Shown: positions 43,099 to 61,151 of the stretch, piece after piece
Layout of the letters: each line of letters begins with the position of its first letter
Position numbering within the stretch: position 1 is the first letter of the stretch
Assembly: GCF_000158195.2 (NCBI RefSeq)
Contig: NZ_GL987994.1
Coordinates: 306,343 to 370,342, forward strand
Direction: 5' to 3'
DNA: 64,000 nucleotides
Origin: Fusobacterium mortiferum ATCC 9817
Lineage (GTDB): Bacteria; Fusobacteriota; Fusobacteriia; Fusobacteriales; Fusobacteriaceae
Program-made: the position numbers and the translations under genes
Notes under the pieces: generated by a model
What the model was told of the DNA's origin: nothing
Seen by the model: the letters and a program-made list of their open reading frames with translations, nothing else
Database searches by the model: none

Positions 43099-43446
43099 AT
43101 GATTAGAGAATTCTTACTAATATTTGTTATAAACTATATAGGGGTAGTATTAACAGAGGTTTTTCACTTACCAATTCCTGGAACAATCAGTGGAATGTTA
43201 TTACTATTTGCTTTATTATATTTTAAAATTTTAAAACTTTCTCATATAGAAAATGCAGGGAATTTTTTACTTTTGAATATGACAATATTCTTTCTTCCTC
43301 CTTCAGTAAGCTTGCTAGAGAGTATGTATCTATTGAAAACAGGTTTATTTAAAATACTGTTCTTAGTAATTTTTTCGACATTGATAACAATGGTAATTAC
43401 AGCTTTAACTGTGCAATATTTAATTGAAAGAGGAGAGAGAAAATAA
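43099..43446 (+). CDS. lrgA: CidA/LrgA family holin-like membrane protein
   Basis: 115 residues with four membrane helices and the family motif FHLPIPGTISGMLLLFALL near the N-terminus. CidA/LrgA proteins form a membrane complex with their LrgB partner; roles proposed include control of murein hydrolases and, in Bacillus and Streptococcus relatives, pyruvate transport. The ATG of the partner gene overlaps the TAA stop by one base. A Crp/Fnr-type regulator is encoded convergently just downstream. CidA versus LrgA cannot be decided. Confidence 0.85.
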   Translation: MIREFLLIFVINYIGVVLTEVFHLPIPGTISGMLLLFALLYFKILKLSHIENAGNFLLLNMTIFFLPPSVSLLESMYLLKTGLFKILFLVIFSTLITMVITALTVQYLIERGERK

Positions 43447-44135
43447 TGGAAGGAATAACAAATAATCCACTTTTTGGTGTAATAATAAGTTTAATAGCTT
43501 TTGAAATAGGGAAATTTATTTTTAATAAGACAAAATTAGCAATATTTAATCCATTACTTATTGCTACAATAATTGTTATGGGATTTTTAAACATTTTTCA
43601 TATTACTGTAGTAGATTATATGTTGGGAGGAAATTTGATAGTTTTCTTTTTAGCACCAGCTACTGTGGTTTTAGCTATTCCACTATTTCAGCAGATAGAC
43701 TTATTAAAGAAACATTTCATTCCTATTATAGGAGGAGGAATTGTAGGAGCAGTAGTGGCTATACTCTCTGTGATAATATTGGGGAAGTTATTGGGAATAG
43801 ACCATCAACTATTAGTATCTTTTATGCCTAAATCTATAACCACTCCAATAGGAATAGAGCTTTCAAAAATGTTAGGAGGAATTCCTTCAATAACTGTTTT
43901 TGCAATAATTATAACAGGGATTACAGGAAATGTAACAGCTCCTTTTATATATTCTATTTTTAGAATAAAAAACCCTATTGCAAAAGGATTAGGACTTGGA
44001 ATATCAAGTCACGCAGTAGGAACAAGTAGAGCTATTGAGATGGGAAAAGTAGAGGGAGCTATGAGTGCACTATCAATAGTAATAGCAGGGATACTTACAA
44101 TTATCTTAGCTCCAATTTTAAATATGTTTTTATAA
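43446..44135 (+). CDS. lrgB: CidB/LrgB family membrane protein
   Basis: 229 residues, about seven membrane helices. Family motifs are FLAPATVVLAIPLFQQIDLL, PKSITTPIGIELSKMLGG and GLGISSHAVGTSRAIEMG. It is the obligate partner of the preceding LrgA-type protein, with overlapping stop/start showing translational coupling. The GISSHAVGTSRA segment is the most conserved part of the family. Confidence 0.9.
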   Translation: MEGITNNPLFGVIISLIAFEIGKFIFNKTKLAIFNPLLIATIIVMGFLNIFHITVVDYMLGGNLIVFFLAPATVVLAIPLFQQIDLLKKHFIPIIGGGIVGAVVAILSVIILGKLLGIDHQLLVSFMPKSITTPIGIELSKMLGGIPSITVFAIIITGITGNVTAPFIYSIFRIKNPIAKGLGLGISSHAVGTSRAIEMGKVEGAMSALSIVIAGILTIILAPILNMFL

Positions 44136-44178
44136 AAAATAGAGGATTATTTCAATTAAAATAATCCTCTATTTTATT
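44134..44178. terminator. Bidirectional terminator between lrgB and the Crp/Fnr regulator
   Basis: AAATAGAGGATTAT pairs with ATAATCCTCTATTT over a 10-base loop. A-rich and T-rich flanks allow termination in both directions. Confidence 0.92.
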
Positions 44179-44866
44179 AATTTTGATAAGTTCCATGAAA
44201 ATAATCTAAAAGAGTATTTTGATTAGGTATAGTAAACCTTTTTCTTACGACTTTAATAAGTCCTAATTCAGAAAGAACTTTTACCTGTCTAGAAACAGTT
44301 TCTCTTTTAGCACCTAAAATTTCACTTAAATATGTAATAGATAAATCAAAGTTTATTTCAGTACCTAAATCAGTTTCTATTCCAAAATCGCGAGCTAATT
44401 TATATAACTTAAGAGCAATTTGTCTATCAACAGTTATAGAGTTAGAAGTATTTTTTATTTGATGTGACATAACTCTATTTTTATAAATCAATGACTCAAT
44501 AACTCCCTTTGCAAGAAGATAACTTTTTTCTAATACCTTCACAAAATCTTCTCTATCTATTTCTAGAAGTTTTGTAGGAGCAAGGAATTCACAACTAAGT
44601 AGAGTTGTATTTTCATATATAATAACTTCATTTAATACATCTCCAGCTCCAAATAAAAATACTACTTTTTTTGTATTATCGGGATTAGGTTTATAAAGAG
44701 AAGCTACCCCTTCAATTACAAAATATATAGTATGAATTTTTTCTCTATCAGAATATAATAAATCTCCTTTTTTATATTCTTTTATTTTAGCTATATTAGC
44801 TAACTCATTTAAAGCCTCTTTATCAAGATTTTGAAATAACTTTATTTTAGCAAGTTCTTTTTTCAA
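44177..44866 (-). CDS. Crp/Fnr family transcriptional regulator
   Basis: About 229 residues from TTG 44866, chosen because GGAGGTG (44879-44873) is six bases before it; the in-frame GTG at 44881 overlaps that site. An N-terminal cyclic-nucleotide-like beta-barrel (KGDLLYSDREKIHTIYFVIEGVASLYK) is followed by a winged helix with recognition helix ILGAKRETVSRQVKVLSELG. There is no N-terminal Cys cluster, so it is not an Fe-S FNR. The effector is unknown. Nearby FNR-geometry dyads (46798 and 46882) are candidate targets. The recognition helix mixes CRP-type (RETV) and FNR-type (SR) residues. Confidence 0.9.
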   Translation of the reverse strand: MKKELAKIKLFQNLDKEALNELANIAKIKEYKKGDLLYSDREKIHTIYFVIEGVASLYKPNPDNTKKVVFLFGAGDVLNEVIIYENTTLLSCEFLAPTKLLEIDREDFVKVLEKSYLLAKGVIESLIYKNRVMSHQIKNTSNSITVDRQIALKLYKLARDFGIETDLGTEINFDLSITYLSEILGAKRETVSRQVKVLSELGLIKVVRKRFTIPNQNTLLDYFHGTYQN

Positions 44867-44896
44867 AAAATTCACCTCCACAAATACGTTATTTAT

Positions 44897-45019: not shown

Positions 45020-46057
45020 TTATCTATTCATCTCAGATGTACTTCCGTTATCATGGTCAGCCATAATACTCTCTACTAGAGAGGCGTCAGCACAAGAGAT
45101 ATCTCCAACAATAGTATTTTTTAATACAGAGTTTGCATTACCATATTTCATAGCTTTTTCAGCTTCATTGAAGTGTAGTAATCCATAAAGTACCCCTGCT
45201 ACATAAGCATCTCCACTTCCTATTCTATCTACAATCTCTATATTTTCATAAGCTCTTTCAGAATAGAAAGTATCAGCTTTTCTATCGTATACTAATGATG
45301 AGAAGTTATGAGATTTTGGAGAATTTACAACTCTTTGAGTAGAAGCTATGAAAGCCAAATCGTATTCTTTCGCAAAAGCTCTGATTATATCCTTTAAATC
45401 TCCAGTTTTTTCAAACATTTTTCTAAATGTTTCTTCAGAAGCAAATAAAATATCTACATCTGGAAGAATTTTTTCTATTTCAACTTTAGCTTCTGGCTCA
45501 GACCATAAATTTCTTCTGAAGTTTACATCAAAAGAAACTAATGCTCCTCCTTTTTTAAAGTTAGCTATTAAATCCTTTGTAAGTTGCATTGAAGTTTCAC
45601 AAAGTCCTAAAGATATTCCACTTGTATGGAAAATTTTAGTCTTTCCAAATACTTCTGGATTAACATCATTTATAGTCATTCTTTGGAATGATGAGTTCAA
45701 TCTATCATAAGTTACATTTGGTTTTCTAGGAGATGAACCATACTCATAGAAGTATATAGGCATACGCTTATATTTACTATCATCAAATATTAAGAAATCA
45801 TCTGCTACTCCATTTAAAGTCATAGATTTTCTAGCAAATTTTCCTAATTCATTGTTTGGTAGAGTAGTTAACATAGCTGTTTTTTCTCCAAGAGTTGATA
45901 CAGAACCAGCAACGTTGAACTCTGCTCCTCCCATTTGTTTTGTCAGTAAATTTCCTTGGATAAGCATCTCATTATTAAGTGGAGATAATCTCATTATCAT
46001 CTCTCCACAACAGATTAATCCAAACTCTCTATCTGCATAATCAAATATTTTACTCAT
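45020..46057 (-). CDS. kdgK: 2-dehydro-3-deoxygluconokinase (PfkB family)
   Basis: 345 residues of the ribokinase/PfkB family, starting GLICCGEMIMRLSP and carrying VSFDVNFRRNLWSE and the catalytic anion-hole/base motif DRIGSGDAYVAGVLYG. It phosphorylates 2-keto-3-deoxygluconate to KDPG. That substrate is inferred from the KDPG aldolase gene directly upstream (18 bp) and from the pectin genes nearby. It is about 30-40 residues longer than typical KdgK (about 310), mainly in the C-terminal part, like the sugar kinases often paired with eda in Firmicutes. Confidence 0.88.
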   Translation of the reverse strand: MSKIFDYADREFGLICCGEMIMRLSPLNNEMLIQGNLLTKQMGGAEFNVAGSVSTLGEKTAMLTTLPNNELGKFARKSMTLNGVADDFLIFDDSKYKRMPIYFYEYGSSPRKPNVTYDRLNSSFQRMTINDVNPEVFGKTKIFHTSGISLGLCETSMQLTKDLIANFKKGGALVSFDVNFRRNLWSEPEAKVEIEKILPDVDILFASEETFRKMFEKTGDLKDIIRAFAKEYDLAFIASTQRVVNSPKSHNFSSLVYDRKADTFYSERAYENIEIVDRIGSGDAYVAGVLYGLLHFNEAEKAMKYGNANSVLKNTIVGDISCADASLVESIMADHDNGSTSEMNR

Positions 46058-46074: not shown

Positions 46075-46710
46075 TTATTTACTTCTGATTTCTAATAATT
46101 TTTTTCTGAAAGCTTGAGCAGTTGCTATTATCTCCTCATCAGTTCCAGAAGCTAATTTTCCTCCAGCACCAACAGCAATTACTCCATTTTTAAACCATTC
46201 TTCCATATTTTCTAAGCTTACTCCACCAGTAGGCATGATATTTGCTTGTGGCAATGGAGCTTTTACAGCTTTTACAAATGATGGTCCAAAAGCACTTCCA
46301 GGGAATAATTTTATGATGTCAGCTCCATATAGCATAGCTGTTGTCATCTCAGTAATAGTCATACATCCAGGCATGTATGGGATTTGGTAAAGATTACATA
46401 ATTTAGCTGTTTCTTTATCAAAAGCAGGTGAAACTATAAATTCTGCTCCAGCTAAAATAGCTATTCTAGCAGTAGCTGCATCTAATACTGTTCCAGCTCC
46501 TATTATCATTTCATTATTTACATCTTGCTCTTTAAGAGCTTTTATTACCTCAGTTGCTCCAGGTACTGTGTAAGTAACTTCTATAGCTGGAATTCCACCT
46601 TTTGCACAAGCTTTAGATATTCTTACTCCTTCAGCAACGCTTTCTCCTCTTACAACTGCAACTATTCCTATATCAGCAAGTCTTTCTAAAATTTTTCCTT
46701 TTCTTAACAT
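46075..46710 (-). CDS. eda: KDPG/KHG aldolase
   Basis: 211 residues, the standard Eda size. The motif VVRGESVAEGVRISKAC near the start, AIEVTYTVPGATEVI with the conserved Glu, and FKLFPG-type IIKLFPGSAFGPSFVKAV carrying the Schiff-base lysine are all present; GGVSLENMEEWF is the phosphate site. It cleaves KDPG to pyruvate and glyceraldehyde-3-phosphate. It is the first gene of the eda-kdgK operon, with AGGAGG upstream and a promoter at 46749-46777. Confidence 0.95.
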   Translation of the reverse strand: MLRKGKILERLADIGIVAVVRGESVAEGVRISKACAKGGIPAIEVTYTVPGATEVIKALKEQDVNNEMIIGAGTVLDAATARIAILAGAEFIVSPAFDKETAKLCNLYQIPYMPGCMTITEMTTAMLYGADIIKLFPGSAFGPSFVKAVKAPLPQANIMPTGGVSLENMEEWFKNGVIAVGAGGKLASGTDEEIIATAQAFRKKLLEIRSK

Positions 46711-46748
46711 GTTATTTCCTCCTAAACTTAACTTGTTTTTACACTATA

Positions 46749-46777
46749 ACTATATAATAAAAATAAGAGAAAATCAA
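46749..46777 (-). promoter_or_regulatory. Probable promoter of eda-kdgK
   Basis: On the minus strand TTGATT (46777-46772), a 17-bp spacer and TATAGT (46754-46749). Operator dyad 1 is centred about 62 bases upstream of the expected start. Confidence 0.6.
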
Positions 46778-46797
46778 CAGAACTATTGTTTATAAAA

Positions 46798-46811
46798 TTT
46801 CAAATATGAAA
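46798..46811. promoter_or_regulatory. Operator-like dyad 1 (eda side)
   Basis: TTTCA-AATA-TGAAA, 14 bp, with extended symmetry AAATTTCA to TGAAATTT (46795-46814). The five-four-five layout is that of FNR-family sites. It lies upstream of the eda -35 box. Confidence 0.55.
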
Positions 46812-46881
46812 TTTTAATAGTTGAGAAAATATAAAAAGTTTATGAAATATAAGGTAATTAGGATTTTAGAAAAAATGAATT

Positions 46882-46895
46882 TTTCATATATGAAA
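46882..46895. promoter_or_regulatory. Operator-like dyad 2 (AEC transporter side)
   Basis: TTTCA-TATA-TGAAA is a perfect 14-bp palindrome, exactly 84 bp centre to centre from dyad 1 and about 62 bases upstream of the expected start for the AEC gene. Confidence 0.55.
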
Positions 46896-46915
46896 TTATA
46901 AAGAGATAGATTGTT

Positions 46916-46944
46916 TTGAAAAGTTAAAAAATTTTTAGTATAAT
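46916..46944 (+). promoter_or_regulatory. Promoter of the AEC transporter gene
   Basis: TTGAAA (46916-46921), a 17-bp spacer and TATAAT (46939-46944), about 35 bases before the start codon. Confidence 0.72.
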
Positions 46945-46980
46945 TTTATCAATAAATAAATTTATTTAAGGGGGAGTAAA

Positions 46981-47874
46981 ATGTTAGAAGTTTTAACTAC
47001 AAAACTTATGCCAATAATTCTATATTTTTTAATAGGGTACGTTTTAAAAGTCTTAAAAATTTTAAAGAAAGAGGAAGCTAGTATACTTATAAAGCTAGTA
47101 TTTTATCTGATGACACCAGCTGTAATAATCTCTTCTATGAGTACAATGAAATTTACTGGGAGTTTAATCTATTACCCAATATCTGCTATATGTATTCATA
47201 TATTTATGTATTTTTTTACTTTGTTTATTGCTAATAGATTAAATATCAATGAAAAAGAGAAGGTAATTTTTAGAGGTTCAACTCTAATTATGAATATGAC
47301 ATTTGTACTTCCCTTTTTTATAGTTTTCTTTGGAGAAAAAAATGTATATCTTCTATCTCTCTTTGATGCTGGAAATCTTTTAATGGTAACTACTGTTGTA
47401 TATTCAATATTTATTACTAATAGCAATGGAGTTTTAGATAAATTAAAATCAGTTTTAAAATCTCCACTTATAATAGCTTTGATTATTGGTGGGATTTTAA
47501 ATCTTAGTGGAAGTAGATTACCGAAAGGGATAGAGATAACAATTCAAAATATTGCTAGTATTACAGGAACTCTTATAATGATTGCTCTTGGAGCTTATTT
47601 TACACCTAAGTTTTCAAAATTAAAATTGAGTATTATTGTTATTCTTGTAAAAATGATAGGAGTTTTATTTATAGGATTTGTAATAGGAAAGATATTACCA
47701 CTTGATGAGATGGAAAAAATGTTGATATTATTGGGAGCTATGTCTCCAGTTGGAAATAATGTCCTTAGTTATGCTATGGTAACAGATGGGGATATGGAGA
47801 TGGCTACTAATGTAATTTCTCTATCTAATGTGGTAAGTTTTATAACTATATCCATTTTATTATTAATTTTGTAA
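46981..47874 (+). CDS. AEC (auxin efflux carrier) family transporter
   Basis: 297 residues, about ten membrane helices. It opens with PIILYFLIGYVLKVLKILKK and ends with a helix after LLGAMSPVGNNVLSYAM, the family's conserved region. AEC carriers move organic acids such as malate or malonate. The gene is divergent from eda-kdgK and the two promoters carry matching dyads, so it could carry a related acid (pyruvate or 2-keto-3-deoxygluconate); that substrate is inference. GGGGGAG precedes the start. Confidence 0.85.
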   Translation: MLEVLTTKLMPIILYFLIGYVLKVLKILKKEEASILIKLVFYLMTPAVIISSMSTMKFTGSLIYYPISAICIHIFMYFFTLFIANRLNINEKEKVIFRGSTLIMNMTFVLPFFIVFFGEKNVYLLSLFDAGNLLMVTTVVYSIFITNSNGVLDKLKSVLKSPLIIALIIGGILNLSGSRLPKGIEITIQNIASITGTLIMIALGAYFTPKFSKLKLSIIVILVKMIGVLFIGFVIGKILPLDEMEKMLILLGAMSPVGNNVLSYAMVTDGDMEMATNVISLSNVVSFITISILLLIL

Positions 47875-47886
47875 GTAGGAAAATAA

Positions 47887-47935
47887 AAAAGCCAACTATT
47901 AAATTAAACTTAGATTAATAGTTGGTTTCTTAATT
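47887..47935 (+). terminator. Terminator of the AEC transporter gene
   Basis: AAGCCAACTATTA pairs with TAATAGTTGGTTT over a loop of about 14 bases, with T-rich sequence following. Confidence 0.82.
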
Positions 47936-48016
47936 TATATTTTAATTTTATTTAGCTATAATAAATATTTAGAATCTCTTTACCATCAAAATAGAAATTA
48001 TAGAAGAAATTTAAAA

Positions 48017-48058
48017 TAAAAAAGGAAATTTTATCTATGGTATAAAATAAAATTTCCC
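48017..48058 (-). terminator. Terminator of the pectin minus-strand operon
   Basis: On the minus strand GGAAATTTTAT pairs with ATAAAATTTCC around a loop of about 12 bases, followed by TTTTTT. It lies about 26 bases after the porin stop. Confidence 0.88.
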
Positions 48059-48083
48059 TAAAATTTGATACTATAATTAAGAA

Positions 48084-49046
48084 TTAAAACGCTTTAGAGA
48101 TAGAAAGTTTATAGAACATTCTATGTTTATATTGGCTTCTAGATTTATTATAATTATCTGAAGTAGCTTGTTGCCAATATATTTCTCCACCTAAAGATAG
48201 AGTTGGATTAATTTTGTATTTAAAAGTAGAACCAATTCTGATTTCATTTCCATCTTTTTCAGCCTTATATGTTTTAGATGTTTCTTTTTCATCTGTTATA
48301 TTATAAGATAAATCGTACCTCATAAAAGGATTAATGGAAAGTTTTTCAGTAGCATTCCAATTATATCCAACTCTTAATTGCCAACGAGTAAATTCATCCT
48401 TATGTTCTCTCTTTTTATATTCATTAAAAAGAGATGTCCAAATAGTATCGTTATTATCTAATTTATACTTAACCCCTAGTACTTCCATTTCTTGATACCA
48501 ATCATCCCAATAAGTAGCAGAAGTACCATCATCTTTCAATCTTGTTCCTTGTTGAACTCTATTTATCATAGGACCAGTATGTCCACTTAGGTATAATTGA
48601 GTATTCTCAGAGATATTATATGTCCAGTTAGGATAAAATCTTAAGTTAAACATTTTTTCATCTTGAGCCTTATTACTTGCTTCATTTATGTCCATAACTT
48701 CATATCTGAATCCAACTTTTGGAGAAAAAGTAAAGTTTCCATTTTTATATTTATATCCACTTACAAAAAATTCATATCTATTTTTACGATTTTTAAATCT
48801 GTTATTATGTCCTTCATTTCTTGTTTTACCATATTGATGAAAATACATATATTTAAATTCTAGTTGGAGAGGAGAATTTTCAATAGGATTAAGATTTAAT
48901 TTTGTATATGGAGCAATCATATCTGAATCATTATAAGTACTATCATATTGCTCATTTTCAAATCCAAATTCAATTGAGTTTGCTCCTATAGCTTGGAAGC
49001 TTAAAAGTCCTGATAATAGGATTAAACTAAGTTTTTTCAATTTCAT
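48084..49046 (-). CDS. OmpG/KdgM-type outer-membrane porin
   Basis: 320 residues from ATG 49046, preferred to the in-frame GTG at 49058, which overlaps AGGTGG. A signal peptide (MKLKKLSLILLSGLLSFQA then IGA) is followed by an alternating beta-strand barrel rich in Tyr and Trp and ending with the outer-membrane C-terminal Phe (KLSISKAF). It resembles the OmpG/KdgM oligosaccharide porins. As the last gene of the pectin arm it likely admits oligogalacturonides to the periplasm. Family assignment is by topology and context; the substrate is inferred. Confidence 0.78.
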   Translation of the reverse strand: MKLKKLSLILLSGLLSFQAIGANSIEFGFENEQYDSTYNDSDMIAPYTKLNLNPIENSPLQLEFKYMYFHQYGKTRNEGHNNRFKNRKNRYEFFVSGYKYKNGNFTFSPKVGFRYEVMDINEASNKAQDEKMFNLRFYPNWTYNISENTQLYLSGHTGPMINRVQQGTRLKDDGTSATYWDDWYQEMEVLGVKYKLDNNDTIWTSLFNEYKKREHKDEFTRWQLRVGYNWNATEKLSINPFMRYDLSYNITDEKETSKTYKAEKDGNEIRIGSTFKYKINPTLSLGGEIYWQQATSDNYNKSRSQYKHRMFYKLSISKAF

Positions 49047-49067
49047 AATTATTACCACCTTTATATT

Positions 49068-50207
49068 TTATTTATTTTTAAATTGTTTGTCTAACCATTC
49101 AAAAGCTTCAACTTGTTGTTCTTTTTCAAAAACATGTCCTTTGTTCCAAAATTTATACTGAAAATTCTCTTTAAAACCACTGGCTTTCCAAACTTTATTC
49201 ATTTGTTCAAATGCTTCCATAACAGAAGGTTTTGGAAATAATGAATCTTGTTCTCCACTAAAAAAAAGCATAGGTTTTGGAGCTGCTAAGCTAGCAATAT
49301 CTGGATAATCCATATATTTAACTAAATATGGATGTAACATTGCATAAGCTGATTGTCCTTTGAGTTGATTATTTCCTTCAGTCATGAGTCCTTTAAGTGT
49401 AGCCATCCAACAAACTGAAATACCAGCTTTTATATTCTCTGAAAGAGCAGCAACTTGCCAAGCTCTAAAAGCTCCCATAGAAAATCCAATAGCAGCGACT
49501 TTATTTTTATCAACTTGAGGTAAAGAAGTTAAAAATTCAGCAGATTTTATATCTTCTTGAGCAATAATACTAGCATAAGAGGTTCCAAGATTAAAAAGGT
49601 TAGAAGCTAAAGCTTGTTGAGCTTCATAACCATTTCCTTGACGTTCTCCCCAACCAAGAGTGTCAATAGCTAAAACTACATAACCCTTTTTAGTTAATTC
49701 ATCTCCTGGAAAAACTCCACTAAAGTATTTTTTACTCCAATTTTGAGCTGAAATTAATTTTTTTTCATCACCCCAAGGCATTATCAACTTTTCTTTACCA
49801 ATGTCAAATTTTGCTCCATGATCATGTAACATAAGAGCTGCTGGGAATGGACCAATTCCTTTTGGAGTTAAAAGAAGAGCAGAGATTTTTAAATTAGGAG
49901 TGATATTAAATAATATTTTTTGTCCAATATAGCTTCCTCTATCAACTTCACTAACAATCTCCATATTAAAATTAAATTTTTTTAGATTAGGAACAATAAA
50001 CTCTTTAGTTTTTTCTAAACCTAATTGTTTCCAAGTATTAAAGTTTGAATTTTCCTTCCAACCGAGAGGGAAAGTAATATCATCTTTTAAATCATGATAA
50101 AAAATTGGTAGATTATCTTTAGTAACAGATAATTGAGTAGTAGAAAAAACATTGTAAGTACAAGATAGAAAACATAAAATAAGAAATAATTTTTTATTAA
50201 GAAACAT
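49068..50207 (-). CDS. Secreted alpha/beta hydrolase, probable pectin (acetyl/methyl) esterase
   Basis: About 379 residues from ATG 50207; an in-frame ATG at 50225 is possible, but AAGGTGGGG lies between the two and the shorter form begins with a clean signal peptide (MFLNKKLFLILCFLSCTYNV). The alpha/beta-hydrolase fold shows the nucleophile elbow GFSMGAFRAW, an upstream FPAALMLHDHGAKF segment and a late Asp/His pair (SGEQDSLFPK, NKGHVF). It resembles acetyl-esterase-like dienelactone hydrolases. Location in the pectin operon suggests removal of acetyl or methyl groups in the periplasm. An internal terminator separates it from the ATPase gene. Confidence 0.75.
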   Translation of the reverse strand: MFLNKKLFLILCFLSCTYNVFSTTQLSVTKDNLPIFYHDLKDDITFPLGWKENSNFNTWKQLGLEKTKEFIVPNLKKFNFNMEIVSEVDRGSYIGQKILFNITPNLKISALLLTPKGIGPFPAALMLHDHGAKFDIGKEKLIMPWGDEKKLISAQNWSKKYFSGVFPGDELTKKGYVVLAIDTLGWGERQGNGYEAQQALASNLFNLGTSYASIIAQEDIKSAEFLTSLPQVDKNKVAAIGFSMGAFRAWQVAALSENIKAGISVCWMATLKGLMTEGNNQLKGQSAYAMLHPYLVKYMDYPDIASLAAPKPMLFFSGEQDSLFPKPSVMEAFEQMNKVWKASGFKENFQYKFWNKGHVFEKEQQVEAFEWLDKQFKNK

Positions 50208-50257
50208 ATACCCCACCTTTTTCATTTTTTCTTCATCTTTTCATCATAAAATTGGTA

Positions 50258-50292
50258 TAAAAAAGGAGTGGAAAGGTAAAGGTGCCACTCCT
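50258..50292 (-). terminator. Internal terminator between the ATPase and esterase genes
   Basis: On the minus strand AGGAGTGG pairs with CCACTCCT around a loop of about 13 bases, followed by six T. It sits mid-operon, so it may lower expression of the esterase and porin relative to the upstream genes, or mark a transcript boundary. Confidence 0.82.
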
Positions 50293-50317
50293 ATAAGATT
50301 GTTAATTTAAAATAACT

Positions 50318-51439
50318 TTATAATGTCAAATTTTCTTCAGTCTCTAAATCAAAAATATGACATTTTTCCATATTGAAATAGAATTGTTCAGTTTGGTTAA
50401 AGTTAGCTTTTGTAGATTTTTCAACAGGAATTCTACAACTATATTGAGTATCTCCTAGAGAGAAATAGATAAACTCTTCATTTCCCATTTGCTCAACTAT
50501 ATTTATTTTACCACTAACTAGATGAGAGTCAGGATTAGTTAATCTATTACCAATATTTTCAGGTCTAATTCCAAACCAAATCTCTTGATTAATTTTATTT
50601 TTTACTTTTTCTGCTTTATCCTTAGGAAGTTCTAATAAATCTCCACTAGATAATCTAACAAATAAAGTATTGTTCTTTTCAATAATAGAAGCTTTAACAA
50701 GATTCATAGCTGGAGAACCTATAAATCCTGCAACAAATTTATTTGCTGGTTTATGATATAAATTTAATGGAGTATCCACTTGCATTATTTTTCCAAAATT
50801 TAATACACAGATTCTATCTCCCATTGTCATTGCTTCTACTTGGTCATGTGTTACATATATCATAGTAGCATTTTGTCCCTCTGCTTTTAATTGCTTATGT
50901 AGTTGAGTTATTTTTACCCTCATTGATACTCTTAATTTTGCATCTAGGTTAGATAGAGGTTCATCAAATAGGAATACATCTGGTTTTCTTACAATAGCTC
51001 TTCCTACTGCTACCCTTTGTCTTTGTCCTCCAGACATCTCCTTTGGTTTTCTATCTAGTAATTGAGTTATCTCTAATTTTTCTGCAGCTTCTCTAACTCT
51101 TTTATCAATCTCATCTTTTGGTACCTTTGCCATCTTAAGTCCAAAAGCCATGTTATCATAAACTGTCATATGTGGGTATAGTGCATAGTTTTGGAAAACC
51201 ATTGCTATTCCTCTGTCTTTAGGAGGTAAGTCATTAACAAGCTTATCACCTATATAAACTTCTCCTCCAGTAATATCTTCTAATCCAGCTATCATTCTAA
51301 GAGTAGTCGACTTTGCACAACCAGATGGCCCTACAAAAACCATAAACTCTCCATCTTTAATATGTAGGTCAATTCCATGAACTGCCTTAAATCCATTTGG
51401 ATATTGTTTTTCTACTTTTTTTAATATAACTTCTGCCAT
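50318..51439 (-). CDS. Sugar ABC transporter ATPase (MsmK/UgpC type)
   Basis: 373 residues of the multiple-sugar-importer ATPase family, including the C-terminal regulatory TOBE region (residues about 240-373). Signature MSGGQRQRVAVGRAIV, Walker B VFLFDEPLSNLDAKLR and H-loop YVTHDQVEAM are normal. Walker A reads GPSGCAKST, with Ala where the consensus has Gly before the lysine. Because the permeases are encoded in the opposite arm at 60269-62081, it must serve them in trans. It may also serve other sugar importers, as MsmK-type ATPases often do. Confidence 0.93.
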   Translation of the reverse strand: MAEVILKKVEKQYPNGFKAVHGIDLHIKDGEFMVFVGPSGCAKSTTLRMIAGLEDITGGEVYIGDKLVNDLPPKDRGIAMVFQNYALYPHMTVYDNMAFGLKMAKVPKDEIDKRVREAAEKLEITQLLDRKPKEMSGGQRQRVAVGRAIVRKPDVFLFDEPLSNLDAKLRVSMRVKITQLHKQLKAEGQNATMIYVTHDQVEAMTMGDRICVLNFGKIMQVDTPLNLYHKPANKFVAGFIGSPAMNLVKASIIEKNNTLFVRLSSGDLLELPKDKAEKVKNKINQEIWFGIRPENIGNRLTNPDSHLVSGKINIVEQMGNEEFIYFSLGDTQYSCRIPVEKSTKANFNQTEQFYFNMEKCHIFDLETEENLTL

Positions 51440-51476
51440 ATTAATGCTTCCTCCTTGTGACTTACTACATTTAAAT

Positions 51477-52316
51477 TTATATATATTTTTTTATAGAATT
51501 GATACACTCTTTTGCTATTTCAACAGTAGAATTTTCCAAAAGAATATCAATATCTATTGTATATTTTTTTAATTCGTTTATAAAAAACTCTAATTCAAAA
51601 TTCCCCTTTCCTATTGGTACAACTTTTATTTCATCATTTTCAATAATGAAGTCCTTTAGGTGTATTCTAACAATTTTATGTCCAAATAATTCAAAGGATT
51701 TTTTAATAATCTCTTTTTGATTAATATAATTGTTAATTGTTAGAAAATTAACAGGGTCAAATATTACTTTTAATCTATCTGAATCTAAAATATCTAAAGC
51801 TTTTTTCATTTTTTCTGGAGTGGCAATTATATGCTTAGCCACTCCTTCAATTGCTAAATCAGTATCATATAGTTCAGCATAAGATATAAGTTTTTTCATA
51901 GAATCTAAGAAAAGATTAAAAGCTTCCTCAGTATCATTTAATGGAGTATATATATACTCTGAATTGTAACATCCAGTTTCTGTTCCCACTAAACTAGTTT
52001 TAAATTTTTTAGAGAATTTCAAATGAGCTTTAAATTTTTCTAAATCTTTCAATCTAGAATTTTCATCAGTATTAGTAAGATTAATATAACAACCAAGAAC
52101 AGAAAGTCTTATATTTTCTTTTTCGAGTACTTGATTAAGTTCTTGGAAAAGTTTATCATCTAATAAAGTTTTACCAAATTGAAAATCAGTAAAAGATTTA
52201 GCAAGAGCTAATTGTAAACATTCTCCATCTAAACTTTTTATAAGTTTAATAAGAGATGAGAAATCAGAAATAGTATATTTTCCCATATCATGTCCTCTAA
52301 TTCCAAATCTTATCAT
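51477..52316 (-). CDS. Sugar phosphate isomerase/epimerase-like TIM-barrel protein
   Basis: 279 residues, AP-endonuclease-2-like TIM barrel, no signal peptide. The expected four metal ligands are visible: E157 (AIEGVAKH), D187 (IFDPVNF), H219 (RIHLKDF) and E261 (LLENS). The reaction is unknown; by context it may isomerise or epimerise a pectin-derived sugar acid in the cytoplasm. The start overlaps the PL2 stop by four bases, so the two are translationally coupled even though PL2 acts in the periplasm. Confidence 0.78.
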   Translation of the reverse strand: MIRFGIRGHDMGKYTISDFSSLIKLIKSLDGECLQLALAKSFTDFQFGKTLLDDKLFQELNQVLEKENIRLSVLGCYINLTNTDENSRLKDLEKFKAHLKFSKKFKTSLVGTETGCYNSEYIYTPLNDTEEAFNLFLDSMKKLISYAELYDTDLAIEGVAKHIIATPEKMKKALDILDSDRLKVIFDPVNFLTINNYINQKEIIKKSFELFGHKIVRIHLKDFIIENDEIKVVPIGKGNFELEFFINELKKYTIDIDILLENSTVEIAKECINSIKKYI

Positions 52317-54040
52317 TTTACATCCTCATTTATAGTTTTATTGTATATAACATTTCTGTCATATACACTATCTCCTTCAATATGTTCTCCATGGATATAA
52401 CCACCATGACTTATATATTGAGGAATATTTTTTTCCTTACCTTTTAATATAGCATCAAGTGAAACTAGAGAAAAAGCTTCAATTGAATCAATTTTAGCAT
52501 TTAATAAGTTTGGTTCAGCAACGAAATAACCATTTTTGAATTTTGTAGTTACTAAATTATTACCAACTATTCTAGCTAATTCTATATATTTATCATTGTT
52601 AGTTGCCTTGTATAAATCTATCATCAAGAAGATAGAGTAAGGAGAAGAGTTAGTTGTATTCATATTTAAAGAAATATCTTTTCCATCAAAGGTACCAATA
52701 TCTCCTAAATTAAAGTTTTTATTTAAAATAGTTCTAGCCGTATCCCATAAATTTTTATCCTTAGTAACAGCATACCATCTAATTAATGGGATAGCATATT
52801 CTTCACTTTTAATAGGCTCACTTTTTAGCACTGTTCCTTTTTTCCCATAGTATCCATCTCTAATTAAAGTATAATTACTTAAATCAGTTCCATCATTCCA
52901 AACAGGTTTTAAGTTACCATTTTCTGTATCAAGGGCAATCTTGTAATAATTTTTAAGATTAGCAATAGCAGAAGTTAGGATATCTTTATCTTTAGTTTTT
53001 GTATAGATATCATGTAAAACAAGAGAGTTATCTACAACAATGGTTCTAGGATTTCCCTTAAAAAGAGCATTAGCTTCCTTTGCAATATCACCAAATTCAG
53101 CTCCAAATTGTCTAAATGCTCTATCACCATATTTTGAGTTGGTATCCTTATCACTTTTAGGTGGCCATTCTCTTTTTTTAGGAGATGTAAATTGGTATAC
53201 AGGAGCACCAGTTTCAGGATTTCTAGCTAGCTGATATTGAGTAAATACAGTTTTTCCCCAATCTTTCATCTCTTTATTTGGAGATAATGAATTTAAAACA
53301 TAAGCTGAATAAATTAAATCTGAACCAGCATTGATGAAAGTAAGTCCTTTGGTTTCAGGTAATGCTGGAAGTTTATTAGGGTCAACAATATCTTTAGGGT
53401 GATGTTCCTTAAAAACATTTGGGTTAAACTTTTTATCATAGTTACCATGTCTTCCCATATCAAGAGTATCCCAATCTTCAACATGTGCATTCCAAAAGGC
53501 TATAACATAATTTTTAGTAACTTCTGGATTAATTTCATATAAAAATTCATAGTAAGGAAAAAGATTTTTTAACTCATGTACTTGATTTTTATTTTGTGGA
53601 CCAACAGTAGTTAAAGTATCTAAATTTAAAAATCTATGTCCTCCCCAATAAAATAATTTATTTTCACTAACAAAGTTATCCATAAAATATTTGGAAGTAT
53701 CAACAGCAGTATTAATATATTTTGTATCTCCAGTAACTTCACTAAGAGAAACAAGAGTTCTAAGAAAATTTTGTTGGTTAGCAAAATTTGAAATTTTAAC
53801 CTTTTCACCATTTGGAAAAATCCATTCAACAGGCTCTTTTGTTAAAATATTGATTCCATCTGCTAAAAGAGGTGTTGGATTACTTTTACTTTTTCCATCT
53901 TTTAGAACATTAGTATAAAACTCTTTAACTGCATTTAATCTTTTTTCATCTTCATTATCGTATTTAGGAATAGCAAAACCTAAATTATATAAAGCTAAAA
54001 AAATTAATATTTTTGATAATTTTTTTAATTTGAAGTTCAT
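52313..54040 (-). CDS. Periplasmic pectate lyase, polysaccharide lyase family 2
   Basis: 575 residues. A signal peptide (KILIFLALYNLGFA, cleavage near residue 23) precedes an alpha/alpha-barrel domain. H135 in GGHRF, E156 in VHELK, R197 and H198 in MGRHG have offsets of 21, 41 and 42, the same as the metal ligands and catalytic Arg recalled for the Yersinia PL2A enzyme (H109, E130, R171, H172). PL2 enzymes release unsaturated digalacturonate from polygalacturonate by beta-elimination with Mn or Ni. It lies between the binding proteins and the TIM-barrel gene. This is the initial depolymerising enzyme of the locus. Confidence 0.9.
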   Translation of the reverse strand: MNFKLKKLSKILIFLALYNLGFAIPKYDNEDEKRLNAVKEFYTNVLKDGKSKSNPTPLLADGINILTKEPVEWIFPNGEKVKISNFANQQNFLRTLVSLSEVTGDTKYINTAVDTSKYFMDNFVSENKLFYWGGHRFLNLDTLTTVGPQNKNQVHELKNLFPYYEFLYEINPEVTKNYVIAFWNAHVEDWDTLDMGRHGNYDKKFNPNVFKEHHPKDIVDPNKLPALPETKGLTFINAGSDLIYSAYVLNSLSPNKEMKDWGKTVFTQYQLARNPETGAPVYQFTSPKKREWPPKSDKDTNSKYGDRAFRQFGAEFGDIAKEANALFKGNPRTIVVDNSLVLHDIYTKTKDKDILTSAIANLKNYYKIALDTENGNLKPVWNDGTDLSNYTLIRDGYYGKKGTVLKSEPIKSEEYAIPLIRWYAVTKDKNLWDTARTILNKNFNLGDIGTFDGKDISLNMNTTNSSPYSIFLMIDLYKATNNDKYIELARIVGNNLVTTKFKNGYFVAEPNLLNAKIDSIEAFSLVSLDAILKGKEKNIPQYISHGGYIHGEHIEGDSVYDRNVIYNKTINEDVK

Positions 54041-54051
54041 ATGTAGTCTCC

Positions 54052-55344
54052 TTATTTGTTAGCTTCTAAAAAATTATTAGTAGTTTCTATAATTTTTTTA
54101 GCAAACTCTTCAGATGAAATTTGGTTATATCCTAAATTGTCAACTAAATCTTTTAATTCAGTATGTAGTTGTTTATGTTCGAATAAAGGATGAATTCCTT
54201 TTCCTGCAAAAGAAATAACTTTATTGTTAGCCTCTAACATAAATGGGTCTAGTAAATTAGCTTTTTCAAGAGTGGCTACAGCTTTTTTATTAGCTGGAAT
54301 TCCTCTAGAAACATCTAATATTTTCACTGCTTCCTCATCTGAAACTAAGAAATTAAGAAGTTGAGCAGTTTCTTTAGGATATTTTGTATTTTTGTTTATA
54401 GCTAGAGCCATAGAAACTTTTGTAAATCCAGAATTATAAGGACCTAAATCAGTTGGATAATCTCCAACTACTAATTCCTCACCATCTTGTAAAGAATCTC
54501 TCCACTTTAATGAAGCACTATCCCACTCATAAGTTCCACCAAATTTTCCAATAATCCAACTAGGATGTTGATCTAGTTGTACATTTCCTGCAGCAGCTCT
54601 ATCAGCTAAAGATGGAATAGTTTTAGTGTTAACCAAATCCAAATAGAAATCAGCTGCATCTTTAATTTGAGCTTCAGTATATGCTACTTTATTGTCAACA
54701 ATAAAAGGTTTTCCAGTTTCTTGCTCTAATTTATAAAGCATAAGTAAAAGGGCACCATAGTAATCAGCTTCAAATGGGAAATAATCAGCTCCTAACTTTT
54801 CTTTCATAACTTTCCCTGCTTCTTTTATCTCCTCGAAGCTTGAAGGAACTTTTAAACCTGCTTTATCATAAGTAGTTTTATTATATAGGAATACTCTACC
54901 AGCAACTCCATAAGGAATAGCATTTAATTTTCCATCAACAATACATTGGTCTAAAAGTATTTGTTCATATTGAGATAAATCAATATCTGATGATAGAGAA
55001 TTTAAATCATAGAGTCCGTTTCCATCCTTTGAAAATATGTTTATCCAGTTCCAGTTAATTTGCATTAGGTCAGCAGCCATTCCTCCTGCCATTTGAGTAG
55101 TAATTTTTTCTTGCCAACCTTGCCATCCACCATACTCAGCTTTAACAGTTATATTTGGATATTTTTGTTCGAATAGTTTTAGAGCCTCAACAGTTTTTTT
55201 ATGTCTATCTTCACCACCCCACCAAGAAACTCTTAAAACTATTTTGTCATCAGAACTAGTAGTAGCTTTTTCCTCTGTTTTTCCACAAGCTCCAAATAAA
55301 GCAATAGTTGAAAGTGATAAAATAAATAATTTTTTTAAATTCAT
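54052..55344 (-). CDS. Sugar ABC transporter substrate-binding lipoprotein (family 1)
   Basis: 430 residues. MNLKKLFILSLSTIALFGAC has a lipobox Cys, so it is membrane anchored. It is a family 1 extracellular solute-binding protein (RVSWWGGEDRHKKTVEALKL, AEYGGWQGWQEKITTQMAGG, LDQHPSWIIGKFGGTYEW). It is a close paralogue of the protein encoded next upstream and should deliver oligogalacturonides, probably unsaturated or saturated di- or trimers, to the permeases at 60269 and 61152. A 34-bp gap separates the two binding-protein genes. Confidence 0.9.
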   Translation of the reverse strand: MNLKKLFILSLSTIALFGACGKTEEKATTSSDDKIVLRVSWWGGEDRHKKTVEALKLFEQKYPNITVKAEYGGWQGWQEKITTQMAGGMAADLMQINWNWINIFSKDGNGLYDLNSLSSDIDLSQYEQILLDQCIVDGKLNAIPYGVAGRVFLYNKTTYDKAGLKVPSSFEEIKEAGKVMKEKLGADYFPFEADYYGALLLMLYKLEQETGKPFIVDNKVAYTEAQIKDAADFYLDLVNTKTIPSLADRAAAGNVQLDQHPSWIIGKFGGTYEWDSASLKWRDSLQDGEELVVGDYPTDLGPYNSGFTKVSMALAINKNTKYPKETAQLLNFLVSDEEAVKILDVSRGIPANKKAVATLEKANLLDPFMLEANNKVISFAGKGIHPLFEHKQLHTELKDLVDNLGYNQISSEEFAKKIIETTNNFLEANK

Positions 55345-55378
55345 ATTAAGTCCCTCCTTATTTTATATATTTTATAGA

Positions 55379-56656
55379 TTAGTTGTATTCTTCTAAGAAG
55401 TTATTTGTAATTTCTATTATATCTTTAGCAGTTTCTTCGACAGATTTTTGTCCATATCCTAAATTTTCAATAACAGTTCTTAAATCTGTATTAAGTTTTT
55501 TATGTTCAAATAGAGGATGAATACCTTTTCCAGAAAAACTGATAACAGCATTATTAGCATCAAAACCTAAACCAGTTAATTGATTATTTTCTTTTAAAAC
55601 ATTTATAGCAGTAGCATTAGAAGGAACTCCTCTTGAAGTACCAAGGATTTTTATTGCTTCAGGGTCTGAAGTTAAGAAATGGACAAGTGTAGCTGCTTCT
55701 TCAGGATGTTTAGTATTCTTTTTGATAGCATATCCCATTGAAACTTTATTAAAAGCAGAAGGATAAGTACCAAAATCTTTTGGATATGGAGCTACTACTA
55801 ACTCTTGTCCAGCTTCTAAAGCATCTTGCCATTTTTGAGCAGAACTATCCCATTCATAAGTTCCAGCATATTTTCCTTGAATCCAACTAGGATGTTGATC
55901 AAGTGGAATAAATCCAGCAGCAGCTCTTACTTTTAAAGAAGGCATAACATTTTCTTTTACTAAATTATCATAAAATCTTACTGCTTCAGTAACTTCTGCT
56001 TCAGTATAGGCAACTTTATTATCAATGATAAAAGGTTTTCCAGTTTCTTGTTCTAATTTATAAATCATTAGCAATAAAGCACCATAGGCATCTGTATCAA
56101 AGGCATAATAATCATTACCTAATTTTTCTCTAATTATTTTGCTAGAAGAAATCATCTCTTCAAAAGAACTAGGAACAGGAAGTCCAGCTTTCTCATATGT
56201 AGTTTTATTGATATAGAAAACTTTACCAGTTACACCAATAGGAACAGCATTTAATTTTCCATTAGCTACACATTGGTTTAACATCTCTTGAGGATAATTC
56301 TTCTCTAGTTCTAAGATATGAGAAACTTTATTTAAATCATAAAATCCACTACCATCTCTAGAGAAAAGGTCAATCCAATTCCAGTTAATTTGCATTACAT
56401 CTGGAGATGTGTTTCCTACTATCTGTGTAGTAACTTTTTCTTGCCAACCTTGCCATCCACCATATTCAGGTTTTACTTTAATGTTAGGATACTTTTCTTC
56501 AAATAACTTTAAAGCTTCTAAAGTTTTTTGGTGTCTATCATCACCACCCCACCAAGACATTTTTAAATTTACAACTTTTTCCTTTGCTTCAGCTATTGAA
56601 GGATAAACCATACTTAAGCAAAGAGTACTCATTAATAAAATCTTTTTGAAATTCAT
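55379..56656 (-). CDS. Sugar ABC transporter periplasmic substrate-binding protein (family 1)
   Basis: 425 residues from ATG 56656; ATG 56668 is rejected because GGAGG lies between them, correctly spaced for the second. The signal peptide (MNFKKILLMSTLCLSMVYPS, then IAEA) has no lipobox Cys, so the mature protein is soluble in the periplasm, unlike its lipoprotein paralogue downstream. Shared blocks (LKMSWWGGDDRHQKTLEAL, PEYGGWQGWQEKVTTQ, SGKGIHPLFEHKKLN) show recent tandem duplication. It is the first gene of the minus pectin arm, behind a strong promoter and an operator dyad. Confidence 0.9.
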   Translation of the reverse strand: MNFKKILLMSTLCLSMVYPSIAEAKEKVVNLKMSWWGGDDRHQKTLEALKLFEEKYPNIKVKPEYGGWQGWQEKVTTQIVGNTSPDVMQINWNWIDLFSRDGSGFYDLNKVSHILELEKNYPQEMLNQCVANGKLNAVPIGVTGKVFYINKTTYEKAGLPVPSSFEEMISSSKIIREKLGNDYYAFDTDAYGALLLMIYKLEQETGKPFIIDNKVAYTEAEVTEAVRFYDNLVKENVMPSLKVRAAAGFIPLDQHPSWIQGKYAGTYEWDSSAQKWQDALEAGQELVVAPYPKDFGTYPSAFNKVSMGYAIKKNTKHPEEAATLVHFLTSDPEAIKILGTSRGVPSNATAINVLKENNQLTGLGFDANNAVISFSGKGIHPLFEHKKLNTDLRTVIENLGYGQKSVEETAKDIIEITNNFLEEYN

Positions 56657-56690
56657 AAAAACCTCCATGATAATTATTTTATATAACTTG

Positions 56691-56704
56691 GTATCCTAGG
56701 ATAC
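56691..56704. promoter_or_regulatory. Operator palindrome of the minus pectin arm
   Basis: GTATCCTAGGATAC is a perfect 14-bp palindrome flanked by CTTG and CAAG-like extensions. It lies at about +12 to +25 of the predicted transcript, a place where a bound repressor would block elongation. The half CTAGGATAC recurs at the plus-arm promoter. Confidence 0.7.
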
Positions 56705-56722
56705 AAGTTGTTTTTCACTAAT

Positions 56723-56751
56723 ATATTACACCAAAAAAATATAGTTGTCAA
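56723..56751 (-). promoter_or_regulatory. Strong promoter of the minus pectin arm
   Basis: On the minus strand TTGACA (56751-56746), a 17-bp spacer and TAATAT (56728-56723), followed by the operator palindrome at 56691-56704. Confidence 0.85.
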
Positions 56752-56831
56752 ATAAAATGTATTAATATTTTACAAAAATGTTTAAAAATATTGAAAAAAT
56801 ATGATTTAAGAAAAATAAAAAATTATTTAAC

Positions 56832-56860
56832 TTGAAAAAATAAGAGTTTTGTGCTAGTAT
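56832..56860 (+). promoter_or_regulatory. Probable promoter of the MATE transporter gene
   Basis: TTGAAA (56832-56837), a 17-bp spacer and TAGTAT (56855-56860), divergent from the minus pectin arm. Confidence 0.65.
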
Positions 56861-56901
56861 CGATAATTGTAAAAATTATTGTAAGTATAGGGGGATATTC
56901 T

Positions 56902-58230
56902 ATGAATGATAAAGTGAAAACAAGTAGAAAAAAGTTATATTTAAGTATGATTAAGTTGGCAATCCCATTAATAATTTCTAACTTCTTACAAAATCTATAT
57001 AATTTAGCAGATACTTATTATATGGGAAAATTAGGTGGGATAGAATTGGCAACTGCGTCATTTACAAGTCCAATAACTCAAATGATAATAGGGGCAGGAA
57101 CAGGATTCTCATTGGGAGGAGGAGTAATACTAAGTCAAACTTTTGGAAGTAAGAATATAAAAAAATTGGTAGAGGTAAACACTCAGTTGATAGTAGTAAA
57201 TATGGTTATTGCCATAATAATAACTGTACTTTCTTTTGGTTTTTGTGAAAAAATATTAGTTTTTTCTGGAGCAACAGGAGTGTTGTTAGAAAAAAGTAGT
57301 TTATATATCAAGTTTATATTTTTAACAATACCAATGACTTTTATTGTAACAGCTTATACTGTAATAAAAAATTCTAAAGGTAAGACAAGTGCTCCTCTGC
57401 ATTTAATAACAGTATCAGTAATTTTAAATATAATTTTAAACTCATTTTTTATTTACAAAATGAATTTAGGTTTAAAAGGGATTGGAATAGCAACTGTTAT
57501 AGCAAATCTATTACTATGTATCTATTGTTTAATTGATTTAAGTATAAAAAGGGAGATAGCTAGGGAATATTTAAAATTTAATAAAGATATTTTTAAAAAA
57601 ATTCTAAGATTAGGTTTTCCAAGTTCATTAACAACAACAACTAACTCTTTAAGTTTTATTTTAATTAATATTTTTGTTGTGAAATATGGAAATGATGTAT
57701 TAGCAGCTTATGGAGTAGGAAATAGAATAAATAATATTATATATGTGTTAGTTAATGGAATAGGAAGTTCAGTAGCTATTCTTGTAGGACATAGTATAGG
57801 AGCTGGAAAAATAAAGGAGATAAGAGAAATATTGCTTGCTGGTATAAAAATAGGTCTTATAGTAGGAATTGTATCAGTGATTTTTCTTTATTGGAATTTA
57901 GATATAGCAGTTGGTATTTTAACAAGTGATGAAATGATAAAATACCATTCAATAAACTATTTGAAAATTATGTTAATAAGTGTAATTCCGTGGGTTATAT
58001 TTCAAGTTTTAGCTGGAGTTTTTCAAGGAACAGGGCATACTACTTTCAATATGTATTGTCATGTAGGAAGAATTTGGATTTTTAGGGTTCCTTTTATATA
58101 TTTTTTAGAGAGAATTTTGGAGTTGAAAGAGTATTCTATTTGGTATTCTATGCTCCTTAGTAATTTATGTGCATTATTATTTTCAATTTTTTTGTATAGA
58201 AAGATAGATTGGAAAAGAAGAGAGGATTAG
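56902..58230 (+). CDS. MATE family efflux transporter
   Basis: 442 residues from ATG 56902, preceded by AGGGGG; an in-frame GTG at 56851 lies inside the promoter and is rejected. About twelve membrane helices, with MATE signatures in the first half (LAIPLIISNFLQNLYNLADT, GGIELATASFTSP) and second half (RLGFPSSLTTTTNSLSFI, NRINNIIYVLVNGIGSSVAI). MATE proteins export drugs or metabolites using sodium or proton gradients. It stands between the two pectin arms in + orientation with its own promoter; a link to pectin use is not evident. Confidence 0.9.
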   Translation: MNDKVKTSRKKLYLSMIKLAIPLIISNFLQNLYNLADTYYMGKLGGIELATASFTSPITQMIIGAGTGFSLGGGVILSQTFGSKNIKKLVEVNTQLIVVNMVIAIIITVLSFGFCEKILVFSGATGVLLEKSSLYIKFIFLTIPMTFIVTAYTVIKNSKGKTSAPLHLITVSVILNIILNSFFIYKMNLGLKGIGIATVIANLLLCIYCLIDLSIKREIAREYLKFNKDIFKKILRLGFPSSLTTTTNSLSFILINIFVVKYGNDVLAAYGVGNRINNIIYVLVNGIGSSVAILVGHSIGAGKIKEIREILLAGIKIGLIVGIVSVIFLYWNLDIAVGILTSDEMIKYHSINYLKIMLISVIPWVIFQVLAGVFQGTGHTTFNMYCHVGRIWIFRVPFIYFLERILELKEYSIWYSMLLSNLCALLFSIFLYRKIDWKRRED

Positions 58231-58236
58231 AAGAGA

Positions 58237-58269
58237 AAGGGGAAAAATTAATTCCCCTTAAATTTTTTA
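58237..58269. terminator. Terminator between the MATE and gntR genes
   Basis: AAGGGGAA pairs with TTCCCCTT over a 7-base loop, followed by T-rich sequence on the + strand. It overlaps the end of the convergent regulator gene. Confidence 0.82.
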
Positions 58270-58956
58270 AATTTTAAAATAATCTGGATGTTTTTCAATT
58301 AGGTAATCAATTTTATTTTTAAAATTTGAAAGATGCAAGTCAATCATTTCATCAACCTTATCAATTTCCTTATTTTTTATGATATCAATAATAGTTTTAT
58401 GTTGTTCTAGTGTAGGGATAAGATTTGTTTTTTCAATAGCATCCAAAAATCTAACTCTATCATAATGAGTACTCAATGGTTGGATAGACTCCCAAACTTT
58501 TTCCTTTTGAACCTCTTTGTATATTATTTTATGAAACTCATTATCTAAGAAAAATAACTCCGAATGATCCTCTTCAATTTGAGAAATTATATTTTGAAAT
58601 TTTAAATTTTTTTCTAATTCTTTTATAGCTGCTTCAGAAAAATTTTTAGTAGCTAGTTTTAAAACTTCCTTTTCTAAAATTTTTCTCATAAAGTATGCTT
58701 CCTCAACAATTTTTAAATCTATCAAAGAAACAAAGGAACCTTTTTGAGGATAAACATCCATAAGACGCTCCTCAGATAATCTAACAATAGATTCACGAAT
58801 AGGAGTTCTACTAACTTTTAAAAATTCACGAATATCAGCTTCACTAATACCAGTTCCAGGTTTTATATTTAAAGTCATGATATTCATTTTAAGAACCCGA
58901 TAGATATAATGTTTTGTATTTTCACCAAATTGACGATTTATTTTTATCAATTCCAT
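58267..58956 (-). CDS. GntR family regulator (FCD/FadR subfamily), likely pectin-locus regulator
   Basis: 229 residues from ATG 58956, preceded by GAGGTG; upstream in-frame codons lack a ribosome site. The N-terminal winged helix shows ISEADIREFLKVSRTPIRES and the RLMDVYPQKGSFVSLIDL wing, and the C-terminal FCD domain has the metal-site spacing (LDNEFHKIIY, LEQHKTIIDIIKNKE, MIDLHLSNFK). FCD regulators such as UxuR, ExuR and LgoR sense sugar acids. Its gene sits next to the GH105 promoter, and shared dyads at 56691 and 59094 are its likely targets. The ligand is probably a pectin catabolite; inferred. Confidence 0.9.
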   Translation of the reverse strand: MELIKINRQFGENTKHYIYRVLKMNIMTLNIKPGTGISEADIREFLKVSRTPIRESIVRLSEERLMDVYPQKGSFVSLIDLKIVEEAYFMRKILEKEVLKLATKNFSEAAIKELEKNLKFQNIISQIEEDHSELFFLDNEFHKIIYKEVQKEKVWESIQPLSTHYDRVRFLDAIEKTNLIPTLEQHKTIIDIIKNKEIDKVDEMIDLHLSNFKNKIDYLIEKHPDYFKI

Positions 58957-58977
58957 TTTAATCACCTCATAAAAATA

Positions 58978-59006
58978 ATTATAGCAAACTTTTTTAAATA
59001 AGTAAA
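58978..59006 (-). promoter_or_regulatory. Probable promoter of the GntR regulator gene
   Basis: On the minus strand TTTACT (59006-59001), a 17-bp spacer and TATAAT (58983-58978). It is divergent from the GH105 promoter. Confidence 0.6.
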
Positions 59007-61147: not shown

Positions 61148-61151
61148 AAAG

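Follow-up and report, generated by a model that had tools for sequence, protein, structure and literature searches.

Paired operators between eda-kdgK and a divergent AEC-family carrier gene in Fusobacterium mortiferum: conserved geometry and most likely assignment to an IclR-family regulator encoded outside the window

The stretch of DNA analysed here, termed the window, comprises 64,000 nucleotides of Fusobacterium mortiferum ATCC 9817 (contig NZ_GL987994.1, positions 306,343 to 370,342; genome G000) and includes a 270-bp intergenic region (46711-46980) that separates eda-kdgK from a divergent AEC-family carrier gene and contains two 14-bp dyads (Table 1). All NCBIfam matches of the kdgK product fall below cut-off, and the gene is predicted to be a target by membership of the same operon as eda. 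A gene pair at 43099-44135, presumably LrgA/LrgB-like, is convergent with the Crp/Fnr-family gene. In the related genomes G002 and G003, the AEC gene comes first and is followed by uxaC-uxuA (names taken from G000 homologues), directly so in G003, where transporter genes are also present (L142:3999-12086). The window's genome differs in that AEC and uxaC are separated by about 24 kb of pectin-type genes (window 47874-64000 plus L140:1-7600), including a pectate lyase gene (PF06917, 52313-54040), ABC transporter genes, kduD and a gene for a beta-barrel protein, so that uxaC no longer stands beside the paired operators.

Table 1. Genes, predicted promoters and operators around the eda/AEC intergenic region (window coordinates).
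Feature	Coordinates	Strand	Remarks
Crp/Fnr-family protein	44177..44881	-	Nearer dyad about 1.9 kb away; judged not to be the regulator of these sites
kdgK, PfkB-family kinase (345 aa), probably 2-keto-3-deoxygluconate kinase	45020..46057	-	Second-best match KDG/KDGal kinase
eda, KDPG/KHG aldolase (211 aa), predicted target	46075..46710	-	NF005119 and TIGR01182 above cut-off
Predicted eda-kdgK promoter, TTGATT-17-TATAGT	46749..46777	-	Predicted start near 46742
Operator 1	46798..46811	.	TTTCAAATATGAAA, one mismatch to TTYCATATATGRAA; centred at -62.5 relative to the predicted start of eda
Operator 2	46882..46895	.	TTTCATATATGAAA; centred 84 bp from operator 1, at -62.5 relative to the predicted start of AEC
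Predicted AEC promoter, TTGAAA-17-TATAAT	46916..46944	+	Predicted start near 46951
AEC-family carrier (297 aa), predicted target	46981..47874	+	PF03547

Both dyads match TTTCA-N4-TGAAA exactly, as a preliminary description of this DNA had reported, and the coordinates bear out the centre-to-centre spacing that it gave. Two such dyads within 270 bp were obtained in none of 20,000 dinucleotide shuffles, and one dyad in 50 of 20,000. The genome scan that the preliminary description proposed returned a divided answer, as the pattern occurs genome-wide at near control frequency (18 sites in 2.67 Mb versus 11 for the reversed control) and is not special at that scale, yet the intergenic pair exceeds chance. 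Fifteen of the other 16 sites are located inside open reading frames and the remaining one lies under a 149-codon open frame. The genome-wide frequency would be compatible with chance palindromes of AT-rich DNA; the shuffles speak against this reading, and conservation of position and distance across five genera already refutes it, leaving it a negligible likelihood. The pair is not a product of chance.

Comparison within the genus, represented by 12 genomes, reveals that the motif proper is TTYCATATATGRAA. An eda orthologue (at least 81% identity) is present in ten of these genomes, all of which carry two sites upstream of eda that follow this consensus, some with one or two mismatches. When the ten regions are aligned, the proximal site and the TTG and TATA of the promoter remain in gapless register, and the stretch between the two sites is divergent and variable in length. 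In genomes where an iclR gene is near eda, nearly all exact copies lie upstream of one or other of these two genes (G007, 4/4; G009, 4/4; G008, 3/3; G010, 4/5), the reversed control giving none in each of these four genomes and 0 or 1 per genome over the genus. G000, G002 and G003 contain one exact copy each, at eda-AEC, which in G000 is operator 2; G006 and G011 have two exact copies each, one of them at eda, and a genome-wide search detected none in G001 and G005. The single exact match of G004 lies inside a gene, as do the stray matches in G006 (C67) and G010 (960802). A one-mismatch scan of the genus was noisy (12 to 44 matches per genome versus 4 to 35 for the reversed pattern) and was replaced by the exact pattern and by composite patterns of site plus promoter; background persists in the latter at up to three mismatches, and G001 and G004 match at two to three mismatches only. 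Both control sites are real and conserved. A weak match at 44989 (TGTCATATATGATA, two mismatches) was not counted, since the kdgK-crp gap of G002 and G003 has no counterpart of it.

Across 61 genomes of the family, eda was found in 38, an IclR-family protein (E up to 1e-40) in 28, and both in 27; the motif was sought in the 330 bp that precede eda. The motif precedes eda in all 27 genomes with IclR at up to two mismatches, each possessing a counterpart of operator 1, and in 25 at up to one mismatch; among the 11 eda-bearing genomes lacking IclR, the corresponding counts are one, at the far edge of the searched stretch, and zero. Outside the window's genus, sites with at most one mismatch occur in 15 of 17 IclR-bearing genomes versus none of 11 without IclR. 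Fisher tests of the association gave p = 2e-8 to 4e-6, values that ignore relatedness among the genomes. The sites occur in five genera, two of which hold both states concordantly: in g2, G013 has IclR and site and G012 neither, and in g12, G051 differs in the same way from G049 and G050. G025 (IclR without eda) was placed in neither group. G009 was counted as IclR-bearing with a broken gene (L148:8282-8824), in which a 180-aa open frame remains and the rest lies in another frame; all four of its exact sites are kept. Genus g3 was included in the family-wide counts of sites, spacings and promoter offsets, and an additional weak match in G031 (-214) was excluded from the table of 43 sites and from the spacings. 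In these 43 sites, which were chosen by this pattern at up to two mismatches, the arms TTYC and GRAA are near invariant.

In the window's genome, the iclR gene is encoded outside the window, about 34 kb from eda (C8:387284-388042, - strand, equivalent to L140:16942-17700); it is the immediate upstream neighbour of eda in G007 and G009, and no more than about 10 kb separate the two genes in G005, G006, G008, G010 and G011. The G007 orthologue scores above cut-off for both family domains (PF09339 HTH_IclR, 27.7 bits versus 22; PF01614 IclR_C, 115 bits versus 24), and the nearest solved structures by profile also belong to the IclR family (best 2ia2, E 8e-21; KdgR 1ysp, 3.5e-13). Because the site tracks IclR, and an orthologue of the Crp/Fnr-family protein accompanies it in only 4 of 27 genomes, the regulator is most likely the IclR protein. 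It is therefore considered probable that the dyads are operators of this regulator, a likely activator encoded beyond the window. Direct binding of IclR to the dyads would account for this co-occurrence; association is not contact, and a different regulator that invariably accompanies this IclR would also be consistent with the data.

The encoded neighbours of the sites offer two other candidates. The preliminary description pointed out a Crp/Fnr-family protein encoded 1 to 2 kb from the dyads, which is correct (Table 1), and took it as their regulator, which the distribution does not support. The idea of class I activation by this protein, bound at the dyads, draws on the dyad length, the -62.5 position and the adjacency of its gene to kdgK in G000, G002 and G003. 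Its orthologues (at least 66% identity) are found in 5 of 61 genomes, namely the four with an eda site and G001, so that 23 genomes have the eda site without it. G001 retains the protein at 82% in the absence of eda, AEC and the exact motif, and the half site TTTCA is unlike the Crp/Fnr consensus halves TTGAT and TGTGA; on these grounds the proposal is judged very improbable. Slightly less so, but still quite improbable, is binding of the sites by the GntR/FCD-family regulator encoded beside iclR (L140:16235-16924), which adjoins iclR in G000, G002, G003 and G008 and a homologue of which adjoins AEC in G005. A GntR/FCD-family gene at 58267-59025, in the pectin-type region of the window, encodes a protein 54% identical to it. 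When this paralogue was used as the query within the genus, the best matches in G007, G009 and G010 reached only 36-37%, though these genomes keep perfect sites, and the other seven site-bearing genomes contain a match of at least 48%; GntR was rejected as the common regulator on the basis of the low matches.

The sites keep a rigid distance from the promoters. Class I CRP/FNR sites lie near -61.5, and the present sites share with them a fixed centre (-61.5 or -62.5, on the assumption of a start 7 bases past the -10) that leaves the hexamers free, and differ from them in protein family and half site. In the window, the nearer dyad is centred at -62.5 from each of the two predicted starts. A promoter scan is weak by itself (3 promoter-like sites versus 4.3 expected in shuffles); support for the predicted promoters comes from conservation: the TTG and TATA of the eda promoter are equidistant from the proximal site in all ten eda-bearing genomes of the genus, and in G002 and G003 the AEC promoter is unchanged in its hexamers and in its distance from the site. 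In the family, 27 of 27 eda arms carry a TTG whose offset from the site start is 33 or 34, followed at 17-bp spacing by TA, against an expectation of 0.7% per arm in mononucleotide shuffles, and offset pairs clear of 33-34 occur in never more than two eda arms. The placement near -62 in the preliminary description thus extends to every eda arm, with a class I-like centre near -61.5 relative to predicted starts.

The same distance recurs at non-homologous promoters, in a comparison in which three Cetobacterium contigs were scored separately. These promoters include AEC in G000, G002 and G003, the gene divergent from iclR in four of four genomes (G007-G010; presumably TctC-like, with weak -35 hexamers, TGTACT) and a transporter-like gene in G011, taken to be EamA-type. 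The centres are at -59.5 and -60.5 for AEC in G006 and G011, respectively, and at -61.5 for uxaC in G008. The target-side sites overlap neither -35 nor -10. The G011 transporter-like gene adjoins eda-kdgK and carries a single exact site at -62.5 (L150:15940). Among 18 further one-mismatch sites of G000, only one is accompanied by such a promoter, at nearly the same distance (offset 35), and it is located upstream of a second AEC-family gene, 29% identical to the first (L191:401, equivalent to C2:68600). Relatives of this gene in G002 and G003 show the composite pattern at two mismatches, and the gene probably belongs to the regulon as well.

A second site is present in 16 of the 27 genomes, 83-96 bp upstream of the proximal one, with spacings of 83, 84 (five pairs), 85, 90, 95 (seven pairs) and 96 bp. 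Fifteen of the 16 pairs have 83-85 or 95-96 bp, two clusters that correspond to 8 and 9 helical turns, one turn apart, and both of which occur within g1 and g5; G032, at 90 bp, is off phase. At a period of 10.5 bp, the spacings give a vector length of 0.83, but the chance is 0.10 when each distinct value is counted once, and the 87-bp pairs that precede iclR are off phase. Helical phasing is suggestive only. The remaining 11 genomes, nine of genus g3 together with G030 and G051, have a single site (up to two mismatches). The assignment of one site to each divergent promoter in the preliminary description fits G000 and fails in G007, G009 and G010, where the second site is kept with no facing gene and no promoter at that distance, so the pair there can only serve eda.

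PMC8222616 describes activators, repressors and proteins with both functions in the IclR family, which bind DNA in dimeric or tetrameric form. In the mechanism proposed here, the IclR protein would bind both dyads and would most likely sense 2-keto-3-deoxygluconate or a nearby intermediate, as the nature of the targets suggests. It would most likely activate from its class I-like position, since a fixed distance to hexamers that are not overlapped favours polymerase contact, and hence activation over repression. The second site would probably allow a tetramer (a dimer of dimers) to occupy both sites on the same face of the DNA with a short loop, and the pair in the window would serve both eda-kdgK and AEC. 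The sites, their conservation and spacings, the association with IclR and the fixed distance to promoter-like hexamers are computed results; binding by IclR, activation, looping, the effector and the transcription starts are all predictions from sequence. The full proposal, in which IclR is a class I-like activator of KDG catabolism in Fusobacteriaceae acting at a rigid -61.5 or -62.5, in which a tetramer in part of the family bridges operators 8 or 9 turns apart and thereby turns on both divergent promoters through a single loop, and in which the 10-base core lies outside the published group 1 subgroups, is accordingly offered as tentative.

The main rival to activation, regarded as unlikely, is repression by the same IclR, with a tetramer bridging the two upstream sites or blocking polymerase contacts near -60 and KDG releasing it, as with enterobacterial KdgR. 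The characterised IclR-family KdgR proteins, known from enterobacteria, are indeed mainly repressors, and in G007-G010 the site beside iclR overlaps the likely -35 of iclR (TATAAT at offset 22), which suggests that IclR represses its own gene in those genomes. On the target side, sites never overlap the hexamers, one distance is kept in 27/27 genomes and at non-homologous promoters, and in genus g3 the single site persists at its fixed position, all of which argue against repression there. Site pairs precede iclR in G007-G010, and the eda pair of G013 doubles as an upstream pair of iclR; in total, 5 of 28 iclR genes have an upstream site with at most one mismatch. As no such site was found upstream of iclR in G000, G002, G003 and G005, autoregulation has no support in the window's own genome.

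The targets of KdgR include eda and kdgK. The KdgR of gamma-proteobacteria is likewise an IclR-family protein and controls pectin and uronate catabolism, and its motif, RWWGAAACGNCGTTTCAKKA, has half sites arranged opposite to those of the present motif (PMC8222616, available text). The G000 protein reaches 85.9 bits against a cut-off of 275 for the KdgR model NF011671 and hence is not a KdgR member by that model. Its best NCBIfam score, 117.9 bits for TIGR02431 (PcaR/PcaU/PobR), is also below cut-off (284.75); this branch shares the group 1 half-site arrangement with the sites described here but has aromatic acid targets and a core one base longer, and it includes activators, judging from titles cited in PMC8222616. 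The 43 sites have the inverted half sites of group 1 (TYCR...YGRA), and their arms are identical to those of the subgroup WTTYCRYW3RYGRAAW (WTT-11-AAW; Suvorova and Gelfand 2021, PMC8222616), whose internal length is 11 instead of 10. In the available text of that study, the four published group 1 subgroups have internal lengths of 11 or 12 (core W3-W4); the length of 10 in all 43 sites falls outside this core, with the proviso that the search pattern had a fixed length of 10 and would miss other lengths. The paired sites are also much farther apart (83-96 bp) than the 18-22 bp reported there for tandem sites of the family, for which three and four turns are over-represented as well.

Among the papers listed by a search of the literature on IclR/KdgR uronate regulons, including Fusobacterium, no such regulon was found, and an earlier prediction in RegPrecise or in the supplements of PMC8222616 is possible. 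Homologues of a tripartite transporter have been described in Fusobacteria, with IclR genes in some such loci, in PMC13390454, the available text of which does not present this regulon. The system is a predicted new regulon of a known family, with a slightly unusual core length and a long pair spacing. The geometry first noticed in the window has been confirmed and generalised, and coordinated control of eda-kdgK and AEC by one regulator is supported, with the regulator most likely to be re-assigned from Crp/Fnr to the IclR protein outside the window. The case illustrates how the nearest encoded regulator, together with a dyad length typical of a well-known family, may direct attention to the wrong protein. 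For Fusobacterium-like bacteria, it provides uronate breakdown with a probable regulator and its motif, and predicts a regulon that comprises eda-kdgK and AEC carriers and, in relatives, would extend to a tripartite-type transporter and iclR itself.
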